Shown: one piece after another, positions 6,589 to 63,633 of the stretch
Layout: each line of letters opens with the position of its first letter
Numbering within the stretch: the first letter of the stretch is position 1
Assembly (NCBI RefSeq): GCF_020535545.1
Contig: NZ_CP084752.1
Location: forward strand, 971,001 to 1,035,000
Origin: Roseateles sp. XES5
GTDB taxonomy: Bacteria; Pseudomonadota; Alphaproteobacteria; Rhizobiales; Rhizobiaceae
Length of the DNA stretch: 64,000 nucleotides
Direction: 5' to 3'
Made by a program: the position numbers and the translations under genes
The notes under the pieces: generated by a model
What the model was told of the DNA's origin: nothing
Seen by the model: the letters and a program-made list of their open reading frames with translations, nothing else
Databases searched by the model: none

Positions 6589-7283
6589 CGGCGACGCCCC
6601 TCATCAGCCTACGCATCGGCGGGGTGGCGCCGCTGGGTGCCCGCGCGGCCCCGAGCGGCATCGCGAAATCCGCCGTCCACGCGCCGCTCGCCCTTTCACG
6701 GACCGGCCTTGCCGGCGACAGGCAGGGCGACCCGGTGCGGCATGGCGGGCCGGAAAAGGCCGTGCACCACTATCCCTTCGATCATTATGCCCCCTGGGCG
6801 AGCGACCTCGGACCGCACCCGCTGCTGGACGGTCCCGGCGCGTTCGGGGAGAACCTTTCGACATCGGGGCTTACCGAGGAGACCGTGGCGGTCGGCGACG
6901 TCTTTCGCCTCGGCACCGCCCTCGTCGAGGTCAGCCAGGGCCGCCAGCCGTGCTGGAAACTGAACGAGCGCTTCGCACGGGCGGACATGGCGCGCCTCGT
7001 GCAATCCACCGGGCGGACGGGCTGGTACTACCGCGTGCTCGAAGCCGGCATCGTCGCGCCGGATGACAGCCTCACCCTTCAGGAGCGCCGCGCGCCGGAC
7101 TGGACGCTCGCGCGCATCTGGCGCACCTTTTACATCGATCCGCTCAACCGCACCGAACTTGCCGGTATCGCCGCGCTCGACCGGCTGGCCGAGGGCTGGC
7201 GCAATCATGCCGCCAGACGGATCGAGATCAACCGGGTGGAGGACTGGACGCGGCGGCTTACGGGCAGCGAACCGCAGGCATAG
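6585..7283 (+). CDS. MOSC-domain sulfurtransferase-like protein (YiiM type)
   Basis: A 232-residue MOSC protein. It has the YiiM signature GLAGDRQGDPVRHGGPEKAV at residues 41-60, the motif GAFGENL (86-92) and the conserved MOSC cysteine in GRQPCWKLNERF (Cys123), followed by the 3-alpha domain at the C-terminus (about 180-225). MOSC proteins bind molybdenum cofactor or carry sulfur; E. coli YiiM protects against N-hydroxylated bases. Which reaction is carried out here is not shown by sequence. It overlaps the thioredoxin-like gene by four bases and is the last gene of the run, converging on rkpH. Confidence 0.88.
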   Translation: MTATPLISLRIGGVAPLGARAAPSGIAKSAVHAPLALSRTGLAGDRQGDPVRHGGPEKAVHHYPFDHYAPWASDLGPHPLLDGPGAFGENLSTSGLTEETVAVGDVFRLGTALVEVSQGRQPCWKLNERFARADMARLVQSTGRTGWYYRVLEAGIVAPDDSLTLQERRAPDWTLARIWRTFYIDPLNRTELAGIAALDRLAEGWRNHAARRIEINRVEDWTRRLTGSEPQA

Positions 7284-45643: not shown

Positions 45644-46675
45644 ATGCGGCCCACCGCAAAAGACCTGGCAGAAGCCGCGGGCGTCAGCCTCGCGACCGTC
45701 GATCGCGTCCTCAACGAGCGGCCGAATGTCAGCCCGAAGGCGGCGAAGAAGGTGGCGGAAGCGATCGAGCGCATCGGCTTCGTGCGCAATCCCGCCGCCG
45801 TGGCGTTGGCGCGCAACAAGACCTATCGCTTCCGCTTCGTCCTGCCGACCTCCGGCGACCAGTATCTTACCGAACTCATCGCCCGCGTCGGCGAGGCGAA
45901 GGAGGCGCTGAGGGCCGATTCCATCGAGGTCGAGGCCGTCCGGATCCCGATGGCCGACCCGCATCACATCGCCAAGTATCTGTCGGCCATCGACAGCGAC
46001 GCGCTGGACGGCGTCGCGGTCATGGCGCCGGAATCGCCGCAGGTGCGCGACGCGCTCGTGCGCCTCGTCGAGCGCGACGTGAAGGTCGTGCAGTTCCTGT
46101 CAGGCCAGGAGCGGGTGGAAAGCGCCGATTATGTCGGCGTCGACAATTTCGCGGCCGGCGCGACGGCCGGCAAGATCGCCGGGCGCTTCATCGGGACGCG
46201 GCCGGGCAAGATCATGGTCGTCGCCGAAACCATGATGGCGCTCGACAGCATCCAGCGCCGCCTCGGGTTCGACAGCATCATCAATGCCCAGTTCCCGCAT
46301 CTCGAAAGCCTGCCCTCGCTGGAAACCTATGCCGACGAGAAGCGCGCCGATCTCATCATCCGCCGCACGCTGCAGCACAACCCGGATACCATCGGTGTCT
46401 ACGTTCTGAGCGCGGAGGCGCGCGTGCCGCTGACCGCCGTCTGGAACGCGCAGGAAACCCGCCCCCTCACCGTCATCGCGCACGAACGCACCCCCTTCAG
46501 CGAGCAGGCACTGATCGACGAGCGCATCGACGCCGTCATCGCCCAGGATCCCGGCCACGCCGTGCGCAGCGCGCTGCGCATCATGCGCGCCCGCTCCGAC
46601 CACCGCGAACCCCTCGCCTCCCAGGAACGCATCCGCATCGAGGTCCTGCTCAAGGAAAATCTCCAGGTGGAATGA
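45644..46675 (+). CDS. LacI-family transcriptional regulator of the ABC/kinase operon
   Basis: A 343-residue repressor. The N-terminal LacI HTH (AKDLAEAAGVSLATVDRVLNER) with hinge helix is followed by a periplasmic-binding-like effector domain (RFRFVLPTSGDQYLTELIAR, GVAVMAPESPQVRDALVRL, GVDNFAAGATAGKIAGRFIG) similar to sugar-binding regulators of the ribose/xylose type. The ATG at 45644 has GAAAGAGAGCGAGA upstream; the frame continues back to 45473 only through the operators. Divergent placement and two matching palindromes make control of the ABC-kinase operon, and of itself, very likely. The inducer is probably the transported sugar or its phosphate. Confidence 0.92.
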   Translation: MRPTAKDLAEAAGVSLATVDRVLNERPNVSPKAAKKVAEAIERIGFVRNPAAVALARNKTYRFRFVLPTSGDQYLTELIARVGEAKEALRADSIEVEAVRIPMADPHHIAKYLSAIDSDALDGVAVMAPESPQVRDALVRLVERDVKVVQFLSGQERVESADYVGVDNFAAGATAGKIAGRFIGTRPGKIMVVAETMMALDSIQRRLGFDSIINAQFPHLESLPSLETYADEKRADLIIRRTLQHNPDTIGVYVLSAEARVPLTAVWNAQETRPLTVIAHERTPFSEQALIDERIDAVIAQDPGHAVRSALRIMRARSDHREPLASQERIRIEVLLKENLQVE

Positions 46676-47042
46676 GGTTGCGGTCTTCGGCATTTGGGAG
46701 GCGACGGCTTTCAACGTAAGCGGCGCCGTCACGCATTCCCAAGGCAAAACGCCTTGTCGCGAACCCGATCCGTTCCTATCGAGGGATTGTCAGTGCAACG
46801 TTCCAGCCGAACCCCTACGCCCATCTTTTGACTGGCATAAACACGATGCTGTGCTACGCTGCGGATGCATTGCCAAGAGGAAACTGTTTTGCGATCCAAC
46901 CTGATCTAGTCAGCTCCATACCTACGCTATCTCGATGCCGGCACAATACAGCGCGAGGCATTGAACAATAACAGTATTTGTCAGCGAAGCGTGCGGTGCG
47001 GGCCTTGTGTCTGCCGCGCGAAAGCTTTCACGTAGGTATGAC
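46676..47042. other. Intergenic region between the lacI-type and mucR-type genes
   Basis: This 367-base stretch holds no convincing gene. A small hairpin CAAGGC-AAAAC-GCCTTG (46740-46756) may end the LacI transcript, though no T-run follows. From about 46825 the DNA is richer in AT, with TTGACT (46830) and several A/T runs, as expected upstream of MucR-type genes, which repress themselves through degenerate AT-rich sites. No clear -10 pairs with that -35. Confidence 0.5.
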
Positions 47043-47501
47043 ATGGATCATAAGACCTCGACTCCCCCCATGGACGCGACAATTGCGTCCTTAACAGCCA
47101 TCGTGGTCGCATATCTGGAGCGCAACGAGATTTCCCCGAGCGACCTCCCGCAGCTCGTCGCGCGACTTCAGTGCGTCCTTCACAATGGGCACGACATTCA
47201 GAAGGCCAGCCTGGTGGAAGGAACCGCCATGCAATCAGTCGCAATTGCGAATACCGAAAGCTCCATACAGGAGGACTATCTGGTTTGCCTGGAGGACGGT
47301 AAGCGGTTCAAATCCCTGAAACGTCATTTGCAAACGAAATACAACATGACCCCCGACGACTACAGGCGGAAATGGAACCTCGCGCCCGACTATCCGATGG
47401 TTGCGCCAGCCTATGCCCAGGCGCGTTCTGAAATCGCCAGAAGCGTCGGTCTCGGCGTCACCATCTCCAGGCACGGCGGCAAGTACCGGGCGAAAACCTA
47501 G
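47043..47501 (+). CDS. MucR/Ros-family zinc-finger-like transcriptional regulator
   Basis: A 152-residue H-NS-like regulator of the MucR/Ros family, which controls exopolysaccharide, motility and symbiosis or virulence genes in rhizobia. The N-terminal helical oligomerisation part (about 10-55) leads to the DNA-binding domain QEDYLVCLEDGKRFKSLKRH, then LQTKYNMTPDDYRRKWNLA. At the four Ros zinc positions it has Cys82, Asp85, His95 and Tyr100, so two ligands are missing; zinc-free relatives are known in Mesorhizobium. The ATG at 47043 follows GTAGGTATGAC. It lies just upstream of, and converges with, the azole-peptide cluster, and may or may not control it. Confidence 0.88.
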   Translation: MDHKTSTPPMDATIASLTAIVVAYLERNEISPSDLPQLVARLQCVLHNGHDIQKASLVEGTAMQSVAIANTESSIQEDYLVCLEDGKRFKSLKRHLQTKYNMTPDDYRRKWNLAPDYPMVAPAYAQARSEIARSVGLGVTISRHGGKYRAKT

Positions 47502-47601: not shown

Positions 47602-48783
47602 TCATGAGAACGGCAAGGGTTCAAGCCGCCGGGCGGCCGCTCCGCAGAAAATATCGATCCAGCGGTTCTCGTTGTTGTTGGATTCCCCAGGGCTCATGTG
47701 AATGAAGAAGTCGGGGGAAACAATTCGGCAGAACCACATCTTCGCGCCGGAAACGGTGACGGATTTTTCATAGACATAAATGTTGCGGGAAACGGAAAGG
47801 AGGCTGTCTTGCAGCGTCTCGATGGCCGCCTCGTCCGCGTCATCAAGCCCGATGCGAAGCGGGTCGACATGCACGTCCAGCTCGAAGTCCGGCCGGTTGG
47901 CGGCGCGAAAATCTTCCTTCAGCTTGTCGCTCCCGTAGTCCCTCATCTGGAAGAATTCCATCTGAGGCAGCAGGAGAGAGGTTTGCCAGACCTCCGTCAG
48001 CGCCTTGAGTTGGGCGGTGTCCTTGCTGACGTCCGCGGCGCACCCGCATGAAAAGTTCACCAGATCACCCGCCCGACGCGATCTGTATTCGGCAAAAAAC
48101 ACTGAAGCGCCTTTCAGGAACGAGATGTCATAGAGGGTGAGCGTGCCATTGCGCATCATCTGCCGGCAGACGACGCTGGCCTTTCCGTGACGGATAAGAC
48201 TCTCATTCAAAGGGGCAATGTCATTGCACCGGCGGGACACCCACATCGCCGTCGTGCATTGCCGCTCGACAAACTCGAGCAGTGCCGACCTGTAGGCGGT
48301 AACCCGATCCGGATGTATGGCGCTGCCCGATGTGTCGCGAACGGGCAGAATGTCCGCGTCCCGGCGACCATCGAAACTGTGCAGGGAAAGAAACACTGCC
48401 GGGTAGAGGCAGGGAGCGCCGGAGCCGAGCCGACGCACGTCAACGAGACGGAAGCTGTGACCTTCCATGTCCGCCCTCGATATGCCGCCCTGGCAGGTCT
48501 GGCATAGCGCAGCGCGCAAAGCCTCCTGCTCGGTGCACGAGAGGTTCATCTCATCGAACCGGCCGGCATGCGTGGGCCGGATGGTTCGAAAGGCCGTATA
48601 GCGCTCCAGATATTCGCCGATCGCCTTGACGTGGACATCGTCGTCGAAGCCGAAACCATGTCCGCTGATGGCATGGGGATCGGCCGCAGAGAAAACGGCG
48701 GGCTCGTATATCGAAACGGGATAGGCGGCCGATACGCGAAATCTTGGCGTCCTGGCCTCGTAGCCGCGATAGTTATTGGACAT
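47602..48783 (-). CDS. YcaO cyclodehydratase of a linear azole peptide cluster (McbD-like)
   Basis: ATP-dependent cyclodehydratase of 393 residues that converts Cys/Ser/Thr of a precursor peptide to azolines. YcaO ATP/Mg motifs: KAIGEYLERY (Glu57, Glu60, Arg61), RSALLEFVERQ and KALTEVWQTSLL. The tail LEPLPFS retains a PxP, a shortened form of the proline-rich C-terminus used by azoline-forming YcaO enzymes. It needs the McbB-like partner for substrate binding. The start at 48783 overlaps the dehydrogenase gene by 11 bases; it is last in the minus-strand operon precursor-B-C-D, the same gene order as mcbABCD of microcin B17. Confidence 0.9.
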   Translation of the reverse strand: MSNNYRGYEARTPRFRVSAAYPVSIYEPAVFSAADPHAISGHGFGFDDDVHVKAIGEYLERYTAFRTIRPTHAGRFDEMNLSCTEQEALRAALCQTCQGGISRADMEGHSFRLVDVRRLGSGAPCLYPAVFLSLHSFDGRRDADILPVRDTSGSAIHPDRVTAYRSALLEFVERQCTTAMWVSRRCNDIAPLNESLIRHGKASVVCRQMMRNGTLTLYDISFLKGASVFFAEYRSRRAGDLVNFSCGCAADVSKDTAQLKALTEVWQTSLLLPQMEFFQMRDYGSDKLKEDFRAANRPDFELDVHVDPLRIGLDDADEAAIETLQDSLLSVSRNIYVYEKSVTVSGAKMWFCRIVSPDFFIHMSPGESNNNENRWIDIFCGAAARRLEPLPFS

Positions 48784-49570
48784 CTTCCCCTCCCGGCAAG
48801 CCGAAGGCTTGCACCACGACCGGGAGCAGCAAGCGGCTGTCCAGCCCGCAATCCTTGGTGAACGCATATTCGGAAAAGCCCGCAAGGACCCGGGAAGCCA
48901 ATCCATGCTGCTGCGCGACGGCCGCCACCTGATGATACATCGAACCGATCTCCAGCAGGGCCAGCCGGTAGCCGCGCGAGCGATACTTGAACGTCGCCCT
49001 CTTCAGGTTGACAAAATAGCCGAGGTAGAAGGCGGCCCCCTTGAACGGGGTGACACCGTCGAAGCGGGCGCGATCGAAGCGTGAGGGTAGAATTTCAAAC
49101 CGGTTGCTGCCGGGCAGGTAGTGCGCGACCGAGAAGGGAGGAACACCGCTCACCATCTCTCCGGTAACGGCGACGGTCTCGGCGCTATAGAGCGCACCGC
49201 CGGAGGCATAGGGTCTGCGCCCCTTCTGGTCCGCCCCGATCGCCTTGCCCACAATCTCGGCAACGGTCGCAAATTCAACGATGCCGGGTCGTCCCTCCTT
49301 GGCGGACGGCCAGCGGGAAACGGCCGTCTGCGTGCTCGTCGGGCGCCCGGCCATGATGTCGCTGATATGGGAGAACCGCGACTCCCTGGTCTCTGTCCGC
49401 AGAAGATCGGCTGGCGAAAGATAGGGCGTGCTGACGCGTTGATCCAGGGATGAACCAGCGCAGCTGAAGCAGTGATGATGGAACGTGCGGACGACATGCT
49501 CCACGTCACGATCGACGAACTGGCTCGCATAGCCGATTTGATTGAGGGCTGAAATATCGATGTTTGTCAT
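48773..49570 (-). CDS. SagB/McbC-type FMN azoline dehydrogenase
   Basis: A flavin-dependent oxidase of 265 residues that turns azolines into aromatic thiazoles and oxazoles. It has the nitroreductase fold of SagB/McbC enzymes: the N-terminal substrate-side region ending FSHISDIMAGRPTSTQ, the family motif RRPYASGGALYSAETVAV (usual form RPYPSAGALYPLE), and LALLEIGSMYHQVAAVAQQHGL. A C-terminal Cys/Gly-containing tail (FTKDCGLDSRLLLP) completes it. Start at 49570, 14 bases after the McbB-like gene; overlaps the YcaO gene by 11 bases. Its presence predicts that the mature peptide contains aromatic azoles, not only azolines. Confidence 0.88.
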   Translation of the reverse strand: MTNIDISALNQIGYASQFVDRDVEHVVRTFHHHCFSCAGSSLDQRVSTPYLSPADLLRTETRESRFSHISDIMAGRPTSTQTAVSRWPSAKEGRPGIVEFATVAEIVGKAIGADQKGRRPYASGGALYSAETVAVTGEMVSGVPPFSVAHYLPGSNRFEILPSRFDRARFDGVTPFKGAAFYLGYFVNLKRATFKYRSRGYRLALLEIGSMYHQVAAVAQQHGLASRVLAGFSEYAFTKDCGLDSRLLLPVVVQAFGLPGGEDVQ

Positions 49571-49584
49571 CGCGATAGCGCTCC

Positions 49585-50433
49585 TCAGATGGACCGCGGA
49601 GCGGCGCTGAATGTGGAATGCGCGCCTCGGTGACGCTCGATGCGACCAGTATCCAGATTCATCTCGATGACCGTGCTGAGGTCGTCGGGGAACAGGGGCG
49701 CAACGCCCTGGGTCAGGAGGGGCCGCAGCCGCATGTAGAGCAGGTGCAGCGCTGCGGCCGCCTCGATCTCGGACGCAGCGAATGTCGGAACCGCGATCGT
49801 TTCGACGGCATAGGGATCCGAAAGGAAGAAATCCGCCCAGCTCGTCGGCTTGAAGCCGGGATTTCTGTCGAGGCCGGCAAGATTGTGAAGGCCGCTGAAA
49901 TGATCGGGCAGCCCCATCGACGGGGAATAAAACCCGTCGATGACAAAATGCCGGAACACGAAATAGGCATGGAGCACGATGCAATTCGGATTGCGCGCGC
50001 AAGCGGCATAGATCTGGCGGACGGCTGCGGGTGAATAGGCGGCCTGAATCGCAACAAGGAATGTCGGATTGCCGATCTCCGCTATGTCCGCGACCGGGTG
50101 GCAGGCAATCGCATCGTTGTTTCTGACGCAGCCGGCCAGGGCGTTTCCAAGATCGTCCGATAGGCAGAAGATGACGACACCGTCGTCGGACTTCATTTCG
50201 CGAAGAACATTGATCCGGCTGAGGAATCGGCCCGCCGCATCGATCGGCAAGGCGTGACGCTGAAGGACCTCCGCGACCTCTGCCCGGCCAGCATGGGGCC
50301 GCATGGACGAGAATTCCCGCAATGCGGATGCAAGATTGGCATCGGTGATCGAGGTTGCCCCCGTCGGGGTGAACAGCCTGCACGCACCGTCGGCGTCGGC
50401 GGCATCAAGGATGAACGGCGATATTGAATACAT
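49585..50433 (-). CDS. McbB-like precursor-binding partner of the cyclodehydratase
   Basis: A 282-residue protein aligned by eye with E. coli McbB, the E1-like/RRE subunit that binds the leader peptide. The winged-helix RRE-like part is near 36-80 (LREFSSMRPHAGRAEVAEVL). The best match is NPNCIVLHAYFVFRHFVIDG, then FYSPSMGLPDHF, against NPGVAFIQSYYLKESFRIDG, then VYSPDLGTPCHF, followed by SWADFF against SWANLL. McbB's zinc-binding cysteines in that region are replaced (PDHFSG for PCHFCH), and the C-terminal pair is also missing. The start at 50433 is 110 bases after the precursor stop, with a hairpin between. Confidence 0.85.
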   Translation of the reverse strand: MYSISPFILDAADADGACRLFTPTGATSITDANLASALREFSSMRPHAGRAEVAEVLQRHALPIDAAGRFLSRINVLREMKSDDGVVIFCLSDDLGNALAGCVRNNDAIACHPVADIAEIGNPTFLVAIQAAYSPAAVRQIYAACARNPNCIVLHAYFVFRHFVIDGFYSPSMGLPDHFSGLHNLAGLDRNPGFKPTSWADFFLSDPYAVETIAVPTFAASEIEAAAALHLLYMRLRPLLTQGVAPLFPDDLSTVIEMNLDTGRIERHRGAHSTFSAAPRSI

Positions 50434-50501
50434 GACTTCCGATCCAGAGTGAGAGGGCTTCCGGCACAGGCTGCATGCTCTACTGCGTCGAACGCTCGAC
50501 T

Positions 50502-50529
50502 GCCCCGGCACTCCGAAGAGCGCCGGGGC
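50502..50529 (-). terminator. Hairpin between precursor and biosynthetic genes
   Basis: GCCCCGGC and GCCGGGGC pair (8 bp, extended by CTC/GAG across one mismatch; loop CGAA) 15 bases after the precursor stop on the minus strand. No T-run follows, so partial termination or an mRNA-processing barrier is likely, giving more precursor than enzyme, as is common in such peptide operons. Confidence 0.55.
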
Positions 50530-50543
50530 GGCCTGGCTCAACC

Positions 50544-50714
50544 TCAGGCCGTCACGCCGCAACGCGACGAGCTGGACGACTTGCCCGAAGCGCCGCAACG
50601 GCTGGAGCTGTCGCAACGTCCGCACGCGGCGGCGGAGGAAACGCCCGGCACGGTTTCCTCGTCGAGAAACTCGATCTGAGTACCAAACTGCGGCGGGTTC
50701 AGATTCTGAATCAT
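50544..50714 (-). CDS. Precursor of a linear azol(in)e-containing peptide
   Basis: A 56-codon gene with an excellent AAAGGAGAG ribosome site. The leader, about 30 residues, reads MIQNLNPPQFGTQIEFLDEE and then TVPGVSSAAA; FGTQIEFLD is reminiscent of FGVVLSVDA in the microcin B17 leader. The core is CGRCDSSSRCGASG (31-44) followed by KSSSSSRCGVTA (45-56): four Cys (31, 34, 40, 52), nine Ser, one Thr, five Gly and three Arg, with SSSRCG occurring twice. Cys and Ser next to Gly or Ser are the usual heterocycle sites. The leader/core boundary after Ala30 is inferred. Genes B, C and D follow on the same strand and the exporter is divergent. The frame continues to 50789 upstream, but without a start signal. 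Confidence 0.9.
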   Translation of the reverse strand: MIQNLNPPQFGTQIEFLDEETVPGVSSAAACGRCDSSSRCGASGKSSSSSRCGVTA

Positions 50715-50761
50715 AAGACTCTCCTTTGTTGAAGTGCACCGCGCTTCACGGCGGCAATGTA

Positions 50762-50789
50762 TTGATAAAATCAAATCAACATTTGTCAA
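50762..50789 (-). promoter_or_regulatory. Probable sigma-70 promoter of the precursor operon
   Basis: On the minus strand TTGACA (50789-50784), a 16-base spacer, then TATCAA (50767-50762). The -35 is a perfect consensus and the start site would lie about 40 bases before the precursor ATG. Confidence 0.65.
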
Positions 50790-50857
50790 CGGATCAATTA
50801 GATTTTATAGTTACATTACATCAAGGTATTCTTGGTTACATTTTGAATTATCTTGAT
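50762..50857. promoter_or_regulatory. Cluster of six ATCAA/TTGAT half-sites, probable operator array
   Basis: TTGAT at 50762 and 50853 and ATCAA at 50770, 50775, 50793 and 50820 occur within 96 bases of the AT-rich divergent region. Two form TTGAT-AAA-ATCAA over the precursor -10 box. Another pair forms CATCAAG...CTTGATG (50819-50858) before the exporter gene. A regulator acting on both directions is inferred. Confidence 0.5.
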
Positions 50858-50889
50858 GCATGCAGGTATAAATAAGGAATTGACTTGTT

Positions 50890-52698
50890 ATGTCTGAATT
50901 CTCGAAAATATTCCATGTCGTCTTCATGGTAATGACGCAAAGCAGGCAGCAGCGAGCGCTGCTTGCGCTGGTCATCGCGACCATTGCGGCGACAGCCGTT
51001 GGTTCAGCGATTTTCCCGGTCTTCTTTTCTCTGGGTATTGACGCCCTGACCAGCGGGCGGGGCGAGCTGGGAACAGCCGTTACCTACATCCTCGCATTCG
51101 GCATAGGGTTTACGGTCGTCGGCATTCTCGAGCAGATACAGTGGCTTACATTTGGGCCGATGAACCTCAGGCTTCAACGGCACCTGACCACGCACGTCTT
51201 CAAACATGCCATATCCCTGCCCTATTACCGACTGAAGACCTACACGACCTATGAGATCGGCCGCACGGTCGAGAAGGGGCTGGATGCCGTTCGGGACATC
51301 ACCTCGAACCTGACCTTCTTTCTCATCCCGACGATCATAGAACTGGTCATCGCCGCGTCCGTCATCGCCTTCATGATCGACATCTGGATCGCCGGGCTCC
51401 TCGTTGGCGCTTTGCTGCTCTACGGTTTCATCGCGAACGTGTCCGCCGAGCGCATCCGCACCTCCACCGAAGACGCAATGCAGAGCGGCATCGACGCCTG
51501 GAATTTCGGGCTTGACGGTGTGGCGAACGCCGAACTGGTCCAGCAGTCGAATCTCGGCCATGACTTCACTCGGGAACTGAACGAAAAGCTGAAGGTCAAC
51601 GATCGCGCGTGGGCGGTCACATTCCGGCAGAGAGCATATTACGGCGCACTGCAGGCTCTCATCTTCGGTCTGGTGGTCTTGGGCGTGCTGTGGAAAGGCA
51701 GCATGAGTGCCGGCAGCGGCGCGATGAGTATCGGCGAACTCGTCCTGCTGAATACCTATATCATCCGTCTGCTGCAGCCCGTTGAAACATTCGCGCGCGT
51801 CTATCGGGACGTGCATGCGGCTCTCGGAGAGGCGCACCTGCTCGCCGATCTCCTCGCAATCGAAGCGCCGGCCCTTGCGCAGGCAGCGCCATCCCCCGGC
51901 AGCAGCCCGCCCACCCTCGAACTCCGCGACGTCTCGATCGATATTGCCGGTCATACGATCCTGTCCGGCATCAGCTTCACCGTTCGTCCGAAGGAGCCCC
52001 TGTTCGTCGTCGGTCCCTCGGGTGTCGGGAAATCATCGCTTCTCAAATTGCTGTCTTGCCTGACAACGGCGAGCAGCGGCCAATACCTGATTGATGATGC
52101 GCCGATTTCACACAGCAACGCGGCTTCGATGCGGGGCGATATTGCAGTGGTGCAGCAGGATTGCCTGCTGTTCGACTGGACGATCCGGGAAAACATCGCC
52201 TTTGGATATCCCGGGGGAGAAGAGGAAATCGACCGCGTGGTCGCCTCCCTCGGACTTGGCGAGGTGATCAGCCGGCATGAAGCACAGGGCGAGCCGACGG
52301 TGGGAGAGCGCGGCAACAGATTGTCTGGCGGTGAAAAACAACGCGTCTCTCTGGCACGTGCGCTCCTGCGCAAACCGCGCCTGCTTCTGCTGGACGAAGC
52401 GACGGCGGCGCTTGACGAGACCAATCGCAAGCGTGTGATGACGGAGATCGAAGCGTTGCAGGATACCAGTTCCAGCGTGTTCATAACGCATGATGTCTCC
52501 CTTCTGGGGCCGAGATCCCGCGTTCTCTATCTGCACGATTCGAGCACGGCCTATTGCGGCATTCACGGCGACATGCTCGCGAGCAATGCAGTCTATGGCG
52601 CGTTCATCGCGGGAAGCGCCCTGGACGATCCGCTTGAGAGGACATGCGACCCGGATTCACGGCAAAAAACGCCTCTGGCCCAGGGGGAGGCAGGCTGA
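50890..52698 (+). CDS. ABC exporter of the azole peptide cluster
   Basis: A 602-residue fused exporter. Six membrane helices lie within residues 20-305 (ALLALVIATIAATAVGSAIF, VTYILAFGIGFTVVGILEQI, FFLIPTIIELVIAASVIAFM and others). The ATPase domain covers about 335-560: Walker A VVGPSGVGKSSLLKLL, signature LSGGEKQRVSLARAL, Walker B LLLLDEATAALDE, H-loop FITHD. There is no peptidase domain, so it does not remove the leader itself. It is likely to export the mature peptide and to provide self-protection, since no McbG-like immunity gene is present. It is divergent from the precursor operon across 175 bases. ATG at 50890 with AAGGA somewhat far upstream. Confidence 0.9.
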   Translation: MSEFSKIFHVVFMVMTQSRQQRALLALVIATIAATAVGSAIFPVFFSLGIDALTSGRGELGTAVTYILAFGIGFTVVGILEQIQWLTFGPMNLRLQRHLTTHVFKHAISLPYYRLKTYTTYEIGRTVEKGLDAVRDITSNLTFFLIPTIIELVIAASVIAFMIDIWIAGLLVGALLLYGFIANVSAERIRTSTEDAMQSGIDAWNFGLDGVANAELVQQSNLGHDFTRELNEKLKVNDRAWAVTFRQRAYYGALQALIFGLVVLGVLWKGSMSAGSGAMSIGELVLLNTYIIRLLQPVETFARVYRDVHAALGEAHLLADLLAIEAPALAQAAPSPGSSPPTLELRDVSIDIAGHTILSGISFTVRPKEPLFVVGPSGVGKSSLLKLLSCLTTASSGQYLIDDAPISHSNAASMRGDIAVVQQDCLLFDWTIRENIAFGYPGGEEEIDRVVASLGLGEVISRHEAQGEPTVGERGNRLSGGEKQRVSLARALLRKPRLLLLDEATAALDETNRKRVMTEIEALQDTSSSVFITHDVSLLGPRSRVLYLHDSSTAYCGIHGDMLASNAVYGAFIAGSALDDPLERTCDPDSRQKTPLAQGEAG

Positions 52699-52882: not shown

Positions 52883-53857
52883 ATGAGCTGTCCCGCGGCT
52901 GTCAACCCGCGGGTCTTCTCAAGCGTCCACCAGCTTTCCCCGTTCGCCAAGCCCCACATGAACCAGACCGTTTCGCCGCCCTCCATTCAAAGTGATGTCC
53001 ATGGTTTCATCGTCAAGGGTGGACCTGTGTGGCGCGCCTGGGACGGGGTTGTGGCCGATGTGTGGGATGTCGAATGCCAACCTTCGGCCGGCGGGATCTA
53101 TGTTGCGCCCTATCCACGCCTGTTCGTGCTGCTCGCCATCAACGAGGGTGGCCGGCTGGAGTTGACGGCGCCCAGCATCAACGCCGTCGGTCGCCATGAG
53201 CGGCCCTTCTCCATGTCCTACATTCCGGCGCAAATGCCGCTTGAAAGCCACGCAGTCGGCGTAACCGGCCTGCGCCACCTCGATCTCCACTTGCCGGGCA
53301 CGGCACTGATGCGCAAGTTCGGCGGCATGATCGCGCAGGAGAAGCTTGCCGAGGCGCGCCTGAATTTTCATGACGCGCGGCTCGCGGCGCTCGCCGGCAT
53401 GCTGGCCGACGAGTGCGAGAGCCGGCAGCCGCTGAACGATCGTTACGGCGCCGGCCTGATCGACGCGCTCATCGCCATCCTGTTTTCGGTCGGCAGCCGC
53501 ACCCCCAAGGCGAGGCCGACGCTCTCGCGCACCCAGCTCGACTTGAGCCTGGACTATATCGAGCGGCGCTGCTTCGAGCCGATCAGGCTGCACAGCCTCG
53601 CCAGCCTGCTAGGCCTCTCCGAAAGCTATTTCAGCCATGCGTTCAAGGCCTCGACCGGCGTGCCGCCACTGCGCTGGCAGATGGAAACGCGCGTCGGCAA
53701 GATCAAGGATTTGCTGCTGCGAGACGATCTGACCCTGACCGACATTTCGGCACTGAGCGGCTTTGCCGACCAGGCACACCTGACGCGCTCCTTCAAGAAG
53801 GTGGTCGGCGTCACGCCCTCGCAGTGGCGGCGCAGCACGCCGCGCACGCACAGGTGA
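52883..53857 (+). CDS. AraC-family regulator of siderophore uptake
   Basis: A 324-residue activator. The N-terminal ligand domain (about 30-200) precedes a C-terminal double HTH (RLHSLASLLGLSESYFSHAFKASTGVPPLRW and LTDISALSGFADQAHLTRSFKKVVGVTPSQWRR). It stands 161 bases before the hydroxamate receptor gene on the same strand. AraC proteins near ferric-siderophore receptors usually sense the ferric siderophore and activate uptake genes; that role is inferred. The start at 52883 gives an almost leaderless mRNA from the consensus promoter; an internal ATG at 52958 (MNQTVSPPSIQ) is an alternative with no clear ribosome site. Confidence 0.87.
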   Translation: MSCPAAVNPRVFSSVHQLSPFAKPHMNQTVSPPSIQSDVHGFIVKGGPVWRAWDGVVADVWDVECQPSAGGIYVAPYPRLFVLLAINEGGRLELTAPSINAVGRHERPFSMSYIPAQMPLESHAVGVTGLRHLDLHLPGTALMRKFGGMIAQEKLAEARLNFHDARLAALAGMLADECESRQPLNDRYGAGLIDALIAILFSVGSRTPKARPTLSRTQLDLSLDYIERRCFEPIRLHSLASLLGLSESYFSHAFKASTGVPPLRWQMETRVGKIKDLLLRDDLTLTDISALSGFADQAHLTRSFKKVVGVTPSQWRRSTPRTHR

Positions 53858-53955
53858 CGAAAAGGTGTGACAAATCCGCATCAGAGCCTATCCGCCACGC
53901 CGGGAAGCCAAGATGAGACAATTGTCGGCAGGATCGTGCAAGGCGACATTCTGAA

Positions 53956-53974
53956 CTTGATATAGGAGGTCAAG
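53956..53974 (+). promoter_or_regulatory. RirA-type iron box before the siderophore receptor
   Basis: CTTGA-TATAGGAGG-TCAAG is a perfect inverted repeat containing TGA-N9-TCA, the iron-responsive operator recognised by RirA in rhizobia. It lies 44 bases upstream of the receptor start. Confidence 0.65.
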
Positions 53975-54018
53975 AATTAACGGCGGCGCAAGGTCCGCTG
54001 CGGAACGGGAAGCGACCA

Positions 54019-56199
54019 ATGCTGCGTTTGAAAGCACACCATCTACTGCTGGCCGGCACGGTGTCCGGCCTTGCCCTGGCGACGATCCAGCCGGCCTTCG
54101 CCCAAGAGGGTGCCGAAACCGAGCTGACGGCGATTGTCGTCGAGGGCGGTCAGGCGGGCGGCGGCGAGGACGATAGCGGCGTCGGCAAGGTCAAGGGCGT
54201 CGTCGCCAAGACGTCGCGCACCGGCTCCAAGACCGCGACCGAGGTGAAGGACATCCCACAATCCGTGTCGGTCGTCGGCCGGGAACAGATGGACATGCAG
54301 AGCCCGCAGAAGATCGATGAGGCGCTGCGCTACGTGCCGGGCGTCAATCCCTCGACCTACGGGACCGACGCCGATACCGACTGGATCTTCGTGCGCGGCT
54401 TCCAGGCCGACCAGACCGGCATCTTCCTCGATGGCCTGCCCTTCTACCAGACGGGGTTCGGCACCTTTCTGATGGACCCGTTCTTCCTCGAGCGCATCGA
54501 GGTGGTGAAAGGTCCGTCATCGGCGCTTTACGGTGGCGGCAATCCGGGCGGCTTCATCAATTATGTCAGCAAGCGCCCAGGCGAGCGCCACCGCCTTGTC
54601 GAAACGGGCGTCAACAGCTTCGGCAACGGCTATCTCGCCGCCGATATCGGCGACACACTGAGCGATGTGCTGTCCTATCGCGTGAACGGCAAGCTGTCGG
54701 GCGGCGGCTGGGAGACGGACCACGCGAAGGACCTTCGCGGCGCCATTGCGCCGAGCTTCAAGTGGCAGCCGGACGAGGCGACCAGCCTCACGGTGCTCGC
54801 CTCGCTGTCGCGCACGGATCTGGTCCATACCAGCAGCGGCTTCCTGCCCTATCATGGCACGGTGGTTCCCAACGCCGCCGGCTATACGATCCCGCGGGAT
54901 TTCTTCTACGGCGACAAGGATGTCGAGCAATACGACCGCACGCAGGCGATGATCGGCTACGAGTTCTCGCACACATTCGACAATGACTGGACCGTGCGCC
55001 AGAACCTTCGCTACGGCACGGTTTCCCTGCAGGAGGATGGCCTTTACGGCAACGGCGTCTTCACCGGCACGACGCTGGGCCGCTACCGCTGGGCGCACGA
55101 TACGAAGGTGAACACCTTCACCGTCGACAACCAGCTTGAAGGCAAGGTCGATACCGGCGCCTTCGAGCACACCGTGCTGCTCGGCGCGGACTATCGCTGG
55201 TATCGTCACGGGGCGTCGACCTTCTTCGATGCGTCGGCGGATGCGGCGTTCTTCCCCGGCACCACGCCGTCCATCGATATTCTCAATCCGGTCTATGGCG
55301 GCGCTTACGGGCCTCCCGCGCTCGGACCGGAGAGCAAGACCACCCTCAACCAGCTCGGTCTCTACGCCCAGGATCAGATCCGCTTCGGCGACGGCTGGCT
55401 GGCGACGCTGAACGGCCGCTACGATTTCGTTTCCACGACGCTCGACACGGCGGGCCTCGAGCGCGACGACAGCAAATTCACCGGCAGGGCGGCGCTGGCC
55501 TACGAGTTCGCCAACGGCCTGACGCCCTATGCGAGCTATTCGACGTCCTTCAGCCCGGCGCTCACCGACAATGGCCAGGGGGCGCTGTTGATGCCCGAAT
55601 CCGCCAAACAGTGGGAAGCCGGCGTCAAATATGCGCCGACGGCCTTCGACGGCCTCTTCACGCTGGCCTATTTCGACATGACCCGCCAGGATGTTCCCAC
55701 GCAGGTTTCGACGGCGCCGGCGCTGACCGAAACCATCGGCGAAGTGCGCGTGCAGGGTATCGAACTGTCCGCCCAGGCCAATCTCGTCAACGGCCTGAAA
55801 GTCATCGGCGCCGTGACCTATCTCGACGCGGAGGTCACCAGCGCCTACGGCCCGAGCTACGATTTCGCACAGGCCGGCACCACGCCGATCCAGATTCCCG
55901 ACCTGACCGCCTCGCTATGGCTCGACTATGCCTTCCAGAGCGACCAACTCGAGGGCCTGAGCGTTGGCACCGGCGTACGCTATATTGGCGAAAGCTGGGC
56001 CGATCGCGCCAACACGCTCAAGGTCGACGATGCCACGATTTTCGACGCCGCCGTCCGCTACCAGCGTGACAATTGGAGCGTGGCGCTCAATGTGGCCAAC
56101 CTGTTCGACAAGGCCTATGTGTCGAGCTGCCAGGGCCTCTCGTCCTGCGGCTACGGCGCGGGCCGCACCGTGACACTCAAGGCGAATGTGACCTGGTGA
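54019..56199 (+). CDS. TonB-dependent ferric-hydroxamate (ferrichrome-type) receptor
   Basis: A 726-residue outer-membrane receptor of the FhuA/FoxA group. The signal peptide ends near IQPAFA-QEG. A TonB-box-like LTAIVVEG follows at about 37-44, then the plug domain (EVKDIPQSVSVVGREQMDMQ; IFVRGFQADQTGIFLDGLPF; VKGPSSALYGGGNPGGFINY). A 22-strand barrel ends LNVANLFDKAYVSSCQG, then the C-terminal GRTVTLKANVTW, with the Cys pair before the last strand that is typical of hydroxamate receptors. Ribosome site GGGAAGCGACCA. The ABC importer genes follow with four-base or shorter overlaps. No siderophore synthesis genes are in the window, so it probably takes up siderophores made elsewhere. Confidence 0.92.
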   Translation: MLRLKAHHLLLAGTVSGLALATIQPAFAQEGAETELTAIVVEGGQAGGGEDDSGVGKVKGVVAKTSRTGSKTATEVKDIPQSVSVVGREQMDMQSPQKIDEALRYVPGVNPSTYGTDADTDWIFVRGFQADQTGIFLDGLPFYQTGFGTFLMDPFFLERIEVVKGPSSALYGGGNPGGFINYVSKRPGERHRLVETGVNSFGNGYLAADIGDTLSDVLSYRVNGKLSGGGWETDHAKDLRGAIAPSFKWQPDEATSLTVLASLSRTDLVHTSSGFLPYHGTVVPNAAGYTIPRDFFYGDKDVEQYDRTQAMIGYEFSHTFDNDWTVRQNLRYGTVSLQEDGLYGNGVFTGTTLGRYRWAHDTKVNTFTVDNQLEGKVDTGAFEHTVLLGADYRWYRHGASTFFDASADAAFFPGTTPSIDILNPVYGGAYGPPALGPESKTTLNQLGLYAQDQIRFGDGWLATLNGRYDFVSTTLDTAGLERDDSKFTGRAALAYEFANGLTPYASYSTSFSPALTDNGQGALLMPESAKQWEAGVKYAPTAFDGLFTLAYFDMTRQDVPTQVSTAPALTETIGEVRVQGIELSAQANLVNGLKVIGAVTYLDAEVTSAYGPSYDFAQAGTTPIQIPDLTASLWLDYAFQSDQLEGLSVGTGVRYIGESWADRANTLKVDDATIFDAAVRYQRDNWSVALNVANLFDKAYVSSCQGLSSCGYGAGRTVTLKANVTW

Positions 56200-57044
56200 G
56201 CGGAACGACGGATCAAGCATCATCGCAGCACGGAGGCGGCAAAACCGCCTCCGCCTCCGCATCCGGCATTGCGGCGACCCCGCTCTATCGGCTGAGCGGG
56301 CTCACCTTTCGCGCCGGCGATCGCGTCATCGTCCACCCGGTCGACCTTGTCGTCCCGCCGCGGCAGGTGCTGGCGCTGGTCGGGCCGAATGGATCGGGCA
56401 AGAGCACACTCCTGAAGATGATGGCGCGGCAGCTGCGCCCTTCCGGCGGCGCGGCCCAACTGCTGGGAGCCCCCATCGCGGGAATGAGCGATCGCGAATT
56501 TGCACGACAGGTCGCCTACATGCCGCAGTTCACGCCGCCGGCCGAGGGCATGACGGTGCGCGAACTGGTCGGGCTCGGGCGCTTCCCCTGGCACGGCGCG
56601 CTCGGCCGCTTCGGCGCCGAGGATGCGGCCAGGGTCGAGGCCGCGCTCGAACAGACCGACCTTGCCGGCATGTCCGGCCGCATGGTCGACAGCCTCTCCG
56701 GCGGTGAACGCCAGCGCGCCTGGCTTGCCATGATGGTGGCGCAGGACGCCCGCTGCCTGCTGCTCGATGAGCCGACCTCGGCGCTCGACATCGCCCACCA
56801 GGTCGAGATGCTGACGCTGGTGCGAAAGCTCAGCCGCGAGGGCGGCGTCGGCGTGGTGATCGTCATCCACGACATCAACATGGCGGCGCGCTTTTGCGAT
56901 CGCATCGTGGCGCTGCGTCAGGGCGACGTGGTGGCCGAGGACGCACCGGCCGGCATCCTCGATGTCGCCGTGCTGAAACGCATCTACGGGCTGGAGATGG
57001 GCATCCTTCCGACCGCCGGCCTGCCGGTCAGCTACGTGCCGTGA
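56196..57044 (+). CDS. fhuC: Iron-siderophore ABC transporter ATPase (FhuC-like)
   Basis: A 282-residue ATPase of the FecE/FhuC family: Walker A LVGPNGSGKSTLLKMM, Q-loop VAYMPQF, signature LSGGERQRAWLAMMV, Walker B CLLLDEPTSALD, H-loop VIHDINMA. About 30 low-complexity residues precede the domain (Ser/Ala/Gly-rich). The start is a GTG at 56196 overlapping the receptor stop (GTGA). The end overlaps or abuts the binding protein start in the same way, so the genes are translated as a chain. The symbol is given by family and by the double-length FhuB downstream. Confidence 0.9.
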   Translation: MSGTTDQASSQHGGGKTASASASGIAATPLYRLSGLTFRAGDRVIVHPVDLVVPPRQVLALVGPNGSGKSTLLKMMARQLRPSGGAAQLLGAPIAGMSDREFARQVAYMPQFTPPAEGMTVRELVGLGRFPWHGALGRFGAEDAARVEAALEQTDLAGMSGRMVDSLSGGERQRAWLAMMVAQDARCLLLDEPTSALDIAHQVEMLTLVRKLSREGGVGVVIVIHDINMAARFCDRIVALRQGDVVAEDAPAGILDVAVLKRIYGLEMGILPTAGLPVSYVP

Positions 57045-57925
57045 TGATGCGCATGTTCACCCGCCGCAACCTGCTGGTCGCCTCGGCCTTCGCCGCGCTG
57101 GCCCCTTCCGTGGCGCGGGCGGCGGAACGGACGGTCGCGGCCATCGACTGGGGCCATCTGGAAACCTGCCTTGCGCTCGGCATCGTGCCGGTCGCCGCAA
57201 CGGAACTCAGGCAGTTCCGTGAAATCGCGGTGGAGCCAAGTCCGCCGCGGGAGGTTGCCGATCTCGGCCTGCGCGGCGCGCCCAATATCGAATTGCTGCG
57301 GATGATTGCGCCGGACCTGGTTCTGATCTCGGACTTCTACGAATACCAGCGCCCGCTGCTGGAGCGCATTTCGCCCGTCGTCAACCTGCCAGTCTACCAG
57401 ATCGGCAAGCCGCCCTATGCGCTGGCGGAGCAGTCGATGGCCGCCATCGCCGCGTTGTTCGGCCGCGAGGCGCAAGCGCAGGCCTATATGGCCGCCGCGC
57501 GCGCCGAGATCGCCGCTATCGGGCAGCGCCTCGGACAATTGGCGCGGCATCCCGTCTTTGTGATCAGCCTCGGCGATTCCCGGCATTTCCGTGCCTTCGG
57601 CGCCGATTCGATGTTCGGCGATGTCGTTACCCGACTGGGATTGGAAAACGCCTGGACCGACCCGACCAGTTACAGCGCCGCCGCGCCGGTCGGGCTGGAG
57701 GCGCTGGCCCGCATCCCCGAGGCGTCCATAGCCGTCATCGGGCCGACGCCGCCGGAGACACGGCGAACGCTGGCGGAGAACGCCCTGTGGAACGCCTTGC
57801 CGGCGGTGGCCGAGGGCCGGGCCAGGGACCTCGCGCCGATCAACCATTTCGGGGCATTGCCATCGGCCCTGCGCTTTGCCCGCGCGCTGGACCGTGTCTT
57901 CGGGAGCCGCGCCAATGCCGGCTAG
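57044..57925 (+). CDS. fhuD: Iron-siderophore binding protein (FhuD-like)
   Basis: A 293-residue periplasmic binding protein. The N-terminus MMRMFTRRNLLVASAFAALA has a twin-arginine-like RR in front of a hydrophobic stretch and a cleavage site near VARA-AE, as in Tat-exported FhuD. The family fold has a single long backbone helix between lobes (LAEQSMAAIAALFGREAQAQ, continuing AYMAAARAEI), NIELLRMIAPDLVLISDF, and LAPINHFGALPSALRFARAL near the end. The start may be ATG 57044 or GTG 57041; both overlap the fhuC stop. It overlaps fhuB by 11 bases. Confidence 0.88.
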   Translation: MMRMFTRRNLLVASAFAALAPSVARAAERTVAAIDWGHLETCLALGIVPVAATELRQFREIAVEPSPPREVADLGLRGAPNIELLRMIAPDLVLISDFYEYQRPLLERISPVVNLPVYQIGKPPYALAEQSMAAIAALFGREAQAQAYMAAARAEIAAIGQRLGQLARHPVFVISLGDSRHFRAFGADSMFGDVVTRLGLENAWTDPTSYSAAAPVGLEALARIPEASIAVIGPTPPETRRTLAENALWNALPAVAEGRARDLAPINHFGALPSALRFARALDRVFGSRANAG

Positions 57926-59891
57926 CGCACGCCTTTCCCCGGTCCTCTTCTGGAGCCTGGCGGCCGCCGCCGCCGCGGCCCTGTTCTGCCGCGAACTGAT
58001 CGCCGGCTGGCCGCAGGGGAACGGGGTCGAACGGCATTTGCAGGAGATCATCCTGATCTACGGCACGGCCCCGCGCGCCGCGACGGCCTTGCTCGCCGGC
58101 GCGACGCTTGGCCTGTCGGGCCTTCTGCTGCAGCGCGTGCTGCGCAACCCGCTGGCAGAACCGTCGACGCTCGGCGTCTCGGCGGGCGCGCAGCTCGCCA
58201 TGGCCACTGCAACGATCCATGCGCCGGCCCTGATGGCATTCTCGGTGGGACTGGTCGCGTTCGCCGGCGGGTTGATGGCCGTGGCGCTGGTTCTGGCGCT
58301 GACCTGGCGGCGCGGGCTCGAACCCGTCTCCGTGGTGCTGGCCGGCATGATGACGGCGCTGACCGCCAATGCGGCAAGCGCGGCGCTGATCCTCGCCAAT
58401 GGCGAATATCTGTTCTCGCTGTTCATCTGGGGCGGCGGCTCGCTGACGCAGCAAAGCTGGGGGCCGGCATTGGTCCTGGGCTTCGCCTTGCTGGCGGGCC
58501 TTGCCGCCTCGGCGCTGCTGTTGCGGCCGCTGGCACTGCTCGGCCTTGATGATGCGGCGGCGCGGAGCCTTGGCGTCGCCGTCAACGCCAGCCGCTTCCT
58601 GGTGATCGGGGTGGCCGTGTGGATGGCGACGACGGTGGCTGCGCAGGTCGGCGTCATCGGGTTCATCGGACTGGCCGCGCCGGCGCTGGCGACGCTGTCG
58701 GGCGCGCGCAGCCTGAAGCAGCGTCTGGTGCTGGCCCCGCTCATCGGCGCCATCCTGCTCTGGCTCACCGACGGCCTCGTGCAGGCACTGGCGGGATTGG
58801 GCGGCGAGCGTGTGCCGACCGGGGCGGCGACCGCGCTCATCGGTGGGCCACTGCTCATCTGGCTGCTGCCCCGTCTGAAACTGTTCGAGTGGCCGGGCCT
58901 TGCAGGCGGAGCGGCACAGGTTCGACGCGCCGCGCGCCCGATCCTGCTGCTCGCCGGACTGGCCGCGCTCGCCTGCCTCGTCTTCGCCATGGCGGCTGCG
59001 CTTGGGCGTGGGCCGGATGGATGGACGCTGGCTACGGGGCAGCGTCTGATCGATCTTGCCGACCTCCGCATCCCCCGTCTTGTCGCGGCGGCAAGCGCCG
59101 GCGCGATGCTGGGCATCGCCGGCGTCGTCATACAGCGCATTACGAGCAATCCGCTTGCCGGCCCGGAAATTCTCGGCGTCGGCATGGGCGCCGGCGCAGG
59201 GCTTGCCGCCGTGCTGCTCATCAGCGCCACGGCGGGCCTCGGCTGGCAGATGGGCGGTTCGGCGCTCGGCGCCCTGGTCGTGCTGCTCTCCATCTTAGCA
59301 CTCGGCGCGCGGGGCAGCCTCGGGCCGGAGCGGTTGCTGTTCGCCGGCATCGCGGCCAATGCGCTTTGCAGCGCCGTGCTGACGGCGATCATCGCACTCG
59401 GCAACCAGCAGTCCTACATGCTGCTGCAATGGCTGAGCGGTTCGACCGGCCAGGTCGGTGTTTCGGAGGCGCTGACAGGAATAGCCGGCCTCTGCATCCT
59501 CGCACCGCCGCTGTTCCTTGCCGCGCGCTGGCTCGACCTCTTCCCGCTCGGCCCCGCCGCCGCGCAAGCGCTCGGGCTGGCGGTCGGCCGGGCCCGTTTC
59601 ATCCTGATCGCCTGCGCCGCGCTGCTGACGGCACTGGCCGCCCTCTTCGTCGGCCCCCTCAGTTTCATCGGCCTGATCGCACCACATCTGGCGCGCCTCA
59701 TCGGCCTCGGCAGGGCTAGGCAACAGCTATGCGGCGCCCTGCTGATCGGTGCCGCCCTAATGGCGCTCTCCGACTGGCTGGCACGCATGGCGGCGTTTCC
59801 GTATCAATTGCCGATCGGGTTGTTCGCCGCGCTGCTGGGCGGACCCTATCTGATCACTCTTCTGGCCCGAGGAACCGAGCGCCGCGGCTGA
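57915..59891 (+). CDS. fhuB: Double-length iron-siderophore permease (FhuB-like)
   Basis: A 658-residue permease formed by two fused FecCD-type halves (about 1-325 and 335-658), each with about ten hydrophobic segments and the motif RVLRNPLAEPSTLGVSAGAQ or its counterpart RITSNPLAGPEILGVGMGAG; the family's cytoplasmic coupling signature also ends each half (VGVIGFIGLAAPALA; VGPLSFIGLIAPHLAR). This fused form is diagnostic of ferric-hydroxamate (FhuB) systems, so ferrichrome-like substrates are likely. The ATG at 57915 lies inside the end of fhuD. The last gene of the run; a truncated gabD remnant follows within about 40 bases. Confidence 0.92.
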   Translation: MPASARLSPVLFWSLAAAAAAALFCRELIAGWPQGNGVERHLQEIILIYGTAPRAATALLAGATLGLSGLLLQRVLRNPLAEPSTLGVSAGAQLAMATATIHAPALMAFSVGLVAFAGGLMAVALVLALTWRRGLEPVSVVLAGMMTALTANAASAALILANGEYLFSLFIWGGGSLTQQSWGPALVLGFALLAGLAASALLLRPLALLGLDDAAARSLGVAVNASRFLVIGVAVWMATTVAAQVGVIGFIGLAAPALATLSGARSLKQRLVLAPLIGAILLWLTDGLVQALAGLGGERVPTGAATALIGGPLLIWLLPRLKLFEWPGLAGGAAQVRRAARPILLLAGLAALACLVFAMAAALGRGPDGWTLATGQRLIDLADLRIPRLVAAASAGAMLGIAGVVIQRITSNPLAGPEILGVGMGAGAGLAAVLLISATAGLGWQMGGSALGALVVLLSILALGARGSLGPERLLFAGIAANALCSAVLTAIIALGNQQSYMLLQWLSGSTGQVGVSEALTGIAGLCILAPPLFLAARWLDLFPLGPAAAQALGLAVGRARFILIACAALLTALAALFVGPLSFIGLIAPHLARLIGLGRARQQLCGALLIGAALMALSDWLARMAAFPYQLPIGLFAALLGGPYLITLLARGTERRG

Positions 59892-60271: not shown

Positions 60272-60348
<77 letters not shown>

Positions 60349-60357
60349 TCACCGGGT

Positions 60358-60443
60358 TTTTGCCTAGGCAAAATACCCACGGTTTTTGCCCTTGGGCAAA
60401 AATCCGTTATTCCGGTCCGGTATTTTGCCGGAGGCAAAATACC
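60358..60443. repeat. Three related hairpins between 5S and tRNA-fMet
   Basis: TTTTGCCTAGGCAAAA (60358-60373), TTTTTGCCC-TT-GGGCAAAAA (60383-60402) and GGTATTTTGCC-GGA-GGCAAAATACC (60419-60443) share the core TTTTGCC/GGCAAAA. All are perfect stems. They may be successive transcription or processing signals, or a small repeat family. Confidence 0.7.
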
Positions 60444-60486
60444 GTTGTTTTCGAGAGCCTCGTTTGGGAGGTCCTTAAAGCATAAA

Positions 60487-60505
60487 GGCCGCTTAGCAAG
60501 CGGCC
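60487..60505 (-). terminator. Hairpin downstream of 5S rRNA
   Basis: GGCCGCTT-AGC-AAGCGGCC, a perfect 8-bp stem with a three-base loop, 73 bases past the 5S end. On the minus strand TTTATG follows. It could be a partial rrn terminator or an RNase stop before tRNA-fMet. Confidence 0.55.
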
Positions 60506-60577
60506 CTTTGATCGGCTTGGGCCGAAGATGTGTCGAGAAGATTTGCGTCTTTGTTTAAGACTTGATTGCCTTTAGCA

Positions 60578-60695
60578 GACCTGGCAGCGACCTACTCTCC
60601 CGCGTCTTAAGACGAAGTACCATTGGCGCTGGGGCGTTTCACGGCCGTGTTCGGAATGGGAACGGGTGCAGCCACCCCGCCATAACCACCAGGTC
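60578..60695 (-). rRNA. rrf: 5S ribosomal RNA
   Basis: The minus strand starts GACCTGGTGGTTATGGCGGG and ends GTAGGTCGCTGCCAGGTC; the ends pair to form helix I. It contains the conserved CCCATTCCGAACACGG loop. Ends are set by this pairing and are accurate to a few bases. Confidence 0.95.
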
Positions 60696-60811
60696 GGCTA
60701 AGGGCAATCAATTGAGAAGCTGGTAGAGGAAGGAAGCCTTCCTCGTTTGTCTTTTTTTGTGAACACGTCTGGATCATGGCCCGCTTGGGGCCGATGAGCA
60801 TGAACAATGAG
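60696..60811 (-). other. 23S-5S spacer
   Basis: 116 bases with no gene. Near the 23S end it holds TGAGCATGAACAATGAGAAC, the 3' arm of the pre-23S processing stem whose 5' arm is at 63627-63653. Confidence 0.8.

Positions 60812-63633
<2,822 letters not shown>

Follow-up and report, generated by a model that had tools for sequence, protein, structure and literature searches.

What does the azole-peptide gene set at 47602-52698 of the DNA studied here make, and how does its product relate to known antibiotics? The DNA is a 64,000-nucleotide stretch (64 kb; hereafter the window) of contig NZ_CP084752.1 of Roseateles sp. XES5, and the gene set is intact within it, with all reading frames open. It had been read, in an original prediction made from the letters of the window, as a complete and probably undescribed microcin-B17-like cluster whose core matched no known product. 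Relatedness was settled here by sequence comparison, and the gene set is real and complete, a cluster that can already be recognised as one of the phazolicin family and whose core variant is new. Its product is very probably an exported inhibitor of the ribosome exit tunnel, acting against related Rhizobiales. The basis of this reading is the gene content and order, the sequence relatedness, the azole register, the conserved contact residues and the target sequence of the host.

The precursor and its core

The precursor gene, phzA-like (50544..50714, minus strand), encodes 56 amino acids, among them four Cys and five Ser in a row, as predicted, and AAGGAG is read from the sequence as its ribosome-binding site. 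Over its full length (precursor residues 2-55 to model residues 1-54) the translation matches the NCBIfam model NF038168, ‘phazolicin family TOMM bacteriocin’, scoring 105.6 bits (cut-off 33; 1e-30); matches to Pfam Zn_ribbon_16 (0.059) and NCBIfam PG0870 (0.074) lie below cut-off and were set aside as chance. Among solved structures, searched up to E = 10, a single chain matched, that of phazolicin (PDB 6u48, E = 0.0038). The phazolicin cluster of Rhizobium sp. Pop5 was located on plasmid NZ_CP099400 and its PhzA was read from there; the 27-residue core of this precursor with eight azoles has a computed mass of 2362.865, and the mass of phazolicin is reported as 2362.868 (PMC6783444). Based on the NF038168, PDB and PhzA matches, the core does have a known counterpart, phazolicin, which the original prediction had named for comparison; the comparison of the precursor with the phazolicin cluster, which it had asked for, gives a clear family match.

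By analogy with phazolicin, the leader is predicted to comprise approximately residues 1-28 and the core to start at residue 29 (AAC...). The predicted 28-residue core reads AAC GRC DSS SRC GAS GKS SSS SRC GVTA and has one extra C-terminal residue compared with phazolicin. With eight azoles its computed MH+ is 2477.909, or 2406.872 with one Ala fewer and 2548.946 with one Ala more. Counted by hand by position, 19 of the 27 aligned positions are the same, with unbroken identity over residues 5-19; the eight that differ are positions 2, 4, 20 and 22-26, including Arg23 and Cys24. The azoles of phazolicin occupy every third residue (PMC6783444). Positions 3, 6, 9, 12, 15, 18, 21 and 24 of the window core are C, C, S, C, S, S, S and C, from which four thiazoles and four oxazoles are predicted, versus three and five in phazolicin; at position 24 the window has Cys and phazolicin has Ser. 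Eight distinct precursors were examined, that of the window among them, and all have Cys or Ser throughout these eight positions. A period-3 Cys/Ser/Thr run equal to that of the window core (nine, with Thr27) arose in 222 of 200,000 shuffles of this core, which also speaks for the phazolicin-type reading. Concerning the phazolicin residues with reported ribosome contact or stacking (Arg5, Asp7, Ser8, Arg11 and azoles 3, 6, 12, 15, 18 and 21; PMC6783444), every one is conserved in the window core. A full-text search found the letters of the window core nowhere in the running text of the literature, and one for papers joining phazolicin and Shinella gave none. The exact peptide looks new, while its kind and likely target are already known; new here are Cys at azole positions 3, 6, 12 and 24, a host that is probably a Shinella, a MucR gene in five of eight clusters and a hairpin in eight of eight spacers (the last three are described below).

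In its C-terminal third the core departs from that of phazolicin, and the changed positions could alter the fit to the uL4/uL22 loop or to the importer, giving a phazolicin-family peptide with a shifted spectrum. This would refine the phazolicin-type reading. The SRCG end is kept in the precursors of Rhizobium sp. PDO1-076 and Mesorhizobium, and the published panel includes three Mesorhizobium strains that resisted phazolicin (PMC6783444), both of which speak for a shift. However, all residues with reported rRNA contact or stacking are unchanged, and the published map shows phazolicin residues 2-23 only, the most-changed end being without known contact (PMC6783444). We regard a shifted spectrum as unlikely. 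With the window core, a small antibiotic family whose ribosome complex has been solved gains a further natural member, from a host that is probably a Shinella. A comparison of such cores, which vary between Ser and Cys at positions 12 and 24 and in their C-terminal end, would separate the azoles needed for binding from those that set the spectrum.

Layout of the cluster and its relatives

On the minus strand the order of transcription is precursor, McbB-family cyclodehydratase partner (49585..50433, 282 amino acids, phzC in Pop5 naming; NCBIfam TIGR04424, 5.5e-40), SagB/McbC-type azoline dehydrogenase (48773..49570, 265 amino acids, phzB in Pop5 naming; PF00881, TIGR03605) and YcaO cyclodehydratase (phzD; 47602..48783, 393 amino acids; PF02624, 3.4e-21, above cut-off). 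The dehydrogenase and YcaO genes overlap by 11 bases. The YcaO protein ends in ...EPLPFS, with a PxP motif, and its SagD match (TIGR03604) is below the cut-off of that model. The gene of the fused membrane/ATPase ATP-binding cassette (ABC) exporter (phzE; 50890..52698, plus strand, 602 amino acids; PF00664, PF00005) is divergent from this operon, as in the phazolicin family, and a MucR/ROS-family regulator gene (47043..47501, plus strand; PF05443, 2.5e-38) is convergent with the YcaO gene. The five predicted genes, in mcbABCD-like order with a divergent fused ABC exporter, are all present and intact, and the reading as a linear azol(in)e-containing peptide cluster is right; the MucR/ROS gene, which is conserved in part of the family, is a sixth that had gone uncounted. 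A scan of 44.0-56.5 kb with Rfam at gathering cut-offs gave no match.

The same enzyme types in an mcbABCD-like order would also be expected of a gyrase poison of the microcin B17 kind. The mcb genes are arranged as mcbABCD, and the McbA core of microcin B17 is Gly-rich. The window core, in contrast, is that of phazolicin, the window cluster has one fused exporter, and a scan confined to the six proteins of the cluster gave no pentapeptide-repeat protein; a single pentapeptide match (0.0008), below cut-off, lies inside the dehydrogenase. The pentapeptide-repeat immunity protein of microcin B17 is McbG (PMC7136475). A gyrase poison is therefore extremely improbable, and microcin B17 is ruled out as the nearest relative, since the core is of the phazolicin type. 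Klebsazolicin (klpACBDE) is an exit-tunnel inhibitor of the same compound class, made by the same enzyme types (PMC6783444, PMC7136475); its N-terminal amidine ring is defined by an X-X-(S/T)-P motif (PMC6783444). This motif is absent at the start of the window core, which is predicted to begin with AAC, and klebsazolicin was ruled out as the nearest relative on that ground. Of the YcaO proteins on Klebsiella plasmids, which need not be those that make klebsazolicin, the nearest is 27.5% identical to that of the window.

All five genes are found in Pop5, two Mesorhizobium plasmids, R. herbae HU44 and three Phyllobacterium; PDO1-076 has four cluster genes and the start of YcaO, where its contig ends, and its YcaO side is not comparable. 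The gene set is more than chance, because corresponding genes recur in this order in Pop5, the Mesorhizobium plasmids, R. herbae and the three Phyllobacterium. The order of relatedness to the window is PDO1-076, then Mesorhizobium, then Pop5 and R. herbae, then Phyllobacterium. Precursor identity is 84% over 55 residues in PDO1-076 (the nearest found), 81% in Mesorhizobium, 69% over 48 residues in Pop5 and R. herbae, and 46-48% in Phyllobacterium; cluster proteins are 70-74% (partner, dehydrogenase and exporter), 70-76%, 53-64% and 41-52% identical, respectively. The McbB-type partner is 55% identical to that of Pop5, 76% to that of Mesorhizobium and 74% to that of PDO1-076; the values are 53% (Pop5) and 71% (Mesorhizobium) for the dehydrogenase, 60% (Pop5 PhzD) and 70% (M. 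loti 582) for YcaO, and 62% (Pop5 PhzE), 75% (Mesorhizobium) and 73% (PDO1-076) for the exporter.

The Pop5 cluster (phzEACBD) has the gene set and order of the window (exporter, precursor, partner, dehydrogenase, YcaO, MucR), with the divergent exporter, the convergent MucR gene and the period-3 azole register in common; its proteins are 53-62% identical, and it lies on a 402-kb plasmid, whereas the window cluster is on a 4.0-Mb contig. PDO1-076 has SRCG near the core end, as in the window, but Ser instead of Cys at azole position 12 and Gly instead of Ser at position 20. The Mesorhizobium plasmids CP050294 and NZ_CP050298 contain the MucR gene, as does the window; both have Ser at azole position 12, versus Cys in the window, and the YcaO gene of NZ_CP050298 is split, unlike that of the window. 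The split copy is that of the M. huakuii 583 plasmid (locus L006), where YcaO lies in two frames (6004-7174); in the M. loti 582 plasmid the gene is open, and the precursor is the same as in the M. huakuii 583 copy. The Phyllobacterium precursors (L012 4980-5192, L013 4990-5202 and L014 4992-5204) have a period-3 Ser register which extends four steps upstream (positions -9 to 24) and would allow up to twelve azoles, versus the eight of phazolicin.

Phazolicin-like clusters in several genera have been reported (PMC10128002), and PDO1-076 and Phyllobacterium myrsinacearum DSM 5893 were named as relatives (PMC6783444). The contig scan for relatives used two short seed patterns and is not exhaustive, having missed P. 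myrsinacearum DSM 5893. Contigs of equal length (L008 and L011, L009 and L013) were taken as duplicates and counted once, and the two Mesorhizobium plasmid loci (L006, L007), with one and the same precursor, as one distinct sequence. Within the genus, the precursor occurs in one genome of 21, that of the window. Among genomes sampled more widely, it was matched in three of 394 from the family, counting that of the window, and in two of 397 from the order; these two are that of the window and a match in genome G202 that was rejected (23.4 bits, under cut-off, with one TGA inside and no cluster-protein relative in a 15-kb stretch around it). A Terasakiispira locus with 22% YcaO identity and weak partner, dehydrogenase, YcaO and exporter matches has no precursor match and was not assigned to the phazolicin family.

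Proposed action and self-protection

Modification, leader removal, export, target, uptake and spectrum are predicted from phazolicin. The McbB-type partner would bind the precursor leader, and YcaO and the dehydrogenase would convert core positions 3, 6, 9, 12, 15, 18, 21 and 24 to azoles; a host protease unlinked to the cluster would then cut off the leader. The ABC exporter would secrete the peptide, thereby also shielding the producer. Related Rhizobiales would take it up through BacA- and Yej-type importers, and the peptide, folded to a compact globule, would plug the exit tunnel of the ribosome beside uL4, at 23S A751/U2609/C2611. With respect to the predicted narrow-spectrum antibiotic against rhizobia, the class and the likely activity are supported and, by analogy, probable; it is the matchless product that falls away.

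The target was looked up in the host itself. Its 23S ribosomal RNA (rRNA), encoded in the window, retains A751, U2609 and C2611, and its uL4 loop has Lys65 and Gly68 (hand count in the translation), as does that of phazolicin-sensitive S. meliloti (PMC6783444). An SbmA/BacA-family importer is also encoded in the host genome. With ribosome and importer in the sensitive state, the host should be sensitive to its own peptide, and self-protection is therefore needed, the exporter being the likely immunity. In the phazolicin producer the self-resistance gene is that of PhzE, which raised the minimal inhibitory concentration for S. meliloti >100-fold (PMC6783444). The window exporter, 62% identical to this pump, would probably serve both export and self-immunity, and the original prediction probably erred in finding no immunity gene. 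We agree that the cluster has no leader peptidase gene; none is annotated in the Pop5 cluster either. Two TldD/PmbA-family proteins encoded elsewhere in the host genome are candidates only for this role.

Four points weigh against the phazolicin-type reading. The dehydrogenase is under the curated cut-offs of both of its families (PF00881: 8e-5, 23.3 bits versus 23.5; SagB TIGR03605: 1.7e-15, 57 versus 78.4). A period-3 test is passed more easily by cores rich in Ser and Cys. The function of the exporter is carried over from PhzE by analogy. Finally, the TldD/PmbA proteins are common, being found in 10 of 14 control genomes, and their presence says little.

Regulation and genomic surroundings

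A MucR/ROS gene convergent to the YcaO gene is found in five of the eight clusters with sequence at this place (window, Pop5, two Mesorhizobium and R. herbae); none was found in the three Phyllobacterium loci. The host genome has one other MucR. Identities within pairs track the clusters (60% between window and Mesorhizobium, 71% between Pop5 and R. herbae). The MucR of the window is 44% identical to that of Pop5, 48% to that of R. herbae and 45% to the other MucR of the host, and the Pop5 and R. herbae proteins are slightly closer to this other host MucR (50 and 51%, respectively) than to that of the window. The case for a single inherited cluster regulator is weakened, because the window MucR resembles those of Pop5 and R. 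herbae no more than it does the other MucR of the host; its conserved place is established, but shared descent with the cluster is not proven by the identities. The M. loti 582 MucR diverges over its last part, as if the frame had changed.

The divergent intergenic region between precursor and exporter (50715..50889) has 66% AT, versus 35% for the whole window; in the seven other clusters the values are 49-69%, the lowest being that of PDO1-076, with a spacer taken as 67 bases. Such an AT-rich promoter region would suit MucR. The precursor-partner spacer (50434..50543, minus strand) folds into a 12-pair hairpin with a UUCG loop (whole-spacer z-score -2.11; three of 200 shuffles fold as well). 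Hairpins of differing sequence are present in all eight spacers folded (that of M. huakuii 583, L006, was not folded), with whole-spacer z-scores from -1.3 to -4.2; the weakest folds are both from Phyllobacterium (L012, equalled by 24 of 200 shuffles, and L013, by eight of 200). In the Phyllobacterium loci L013 and L014 the hairpin is followed by a U-run, resembling an attenuator. The hairpin may limit read-through and so keep the precursor in excess of the enzymes. Neither the MucR gene nor this hairpin was met in the available parts of the phazolicin papers (PMC6783444, PMC10128002, PMC7136475), and a full-text search for literature joining phazolicin and MucR gave one match, an unrelated transcriptome of Myxococcus predation. 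The MucR gene in part of the family is a first handle on the regulation of the cluster.

The MucR-type regulator and the AT-rich promoter region could also belong to a cluster which is intact but silent, or decaying, with no product under normal conditions; the split YcaO gene of the M. huakuii 583 copy and the seemingly frame-changed MucR of M. loti 582 would fit decay. On the other hand, all six reading frames in the window are open and conserved, and Pop5, with the same layout, produces phazolicin in culture (PMC6783444). We consider a silent or decaying cluster improbable. Equally doubtful, when taken as a whole, is a more elaborate version of the phazolicin-type reading, namely a re-tuned natural phazolicin of a Shinella, with four thiazoles and an Arg-Cys C-terminal end, that reaches bacteria beyond the range of phazolicin, a dedicated MucR silencer controlling the AT-rich promoter and the hairpin setting the precursor excess.

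Concerning the origin of the cluster, its left neighbours are a LacI-type regulator (PF00356) and genes read as a sugar ABC transporter, with a long match in eight congeners. In the four congeners compared (86-89% identity) this homology ends sharply at 46669-46676, between the LacI-type regulator and the cluster, and does not resume within approximately 16 kb beyond. By sequence, the cluster proteins resemble those of the Mesorhizobium plasmids more than those of Rhizobium Pop5. The host is probably a Shinella, as two further contigs, each sampled by a single 20-kb stretch, have their best DNA matches in Shinella plasmids. The proximity to Mesorhizobium, together with the synteny break at the cluster, suggests that the cluster was gained horizontally; no mobile element was identified for it.

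On the other side, a putative siderophore uptake operon adjoins the cluster (52883-59891, plus strand). It contains an AraC regulator, a FhuA-like TonB siderophore receptor and a FhuC-like ATPase, the latter two below equivalog cut-offs, followed by genes for a putative binding protein and a putative double FhuB-like permease. A relative of the TonB receptor is found in the congener G397, approximately 200 kb from the LacI gene. Further to the right, tRNA-Met(CAT), 5S and 23S rRNA genes are located at 60272-63633 (minus strand).

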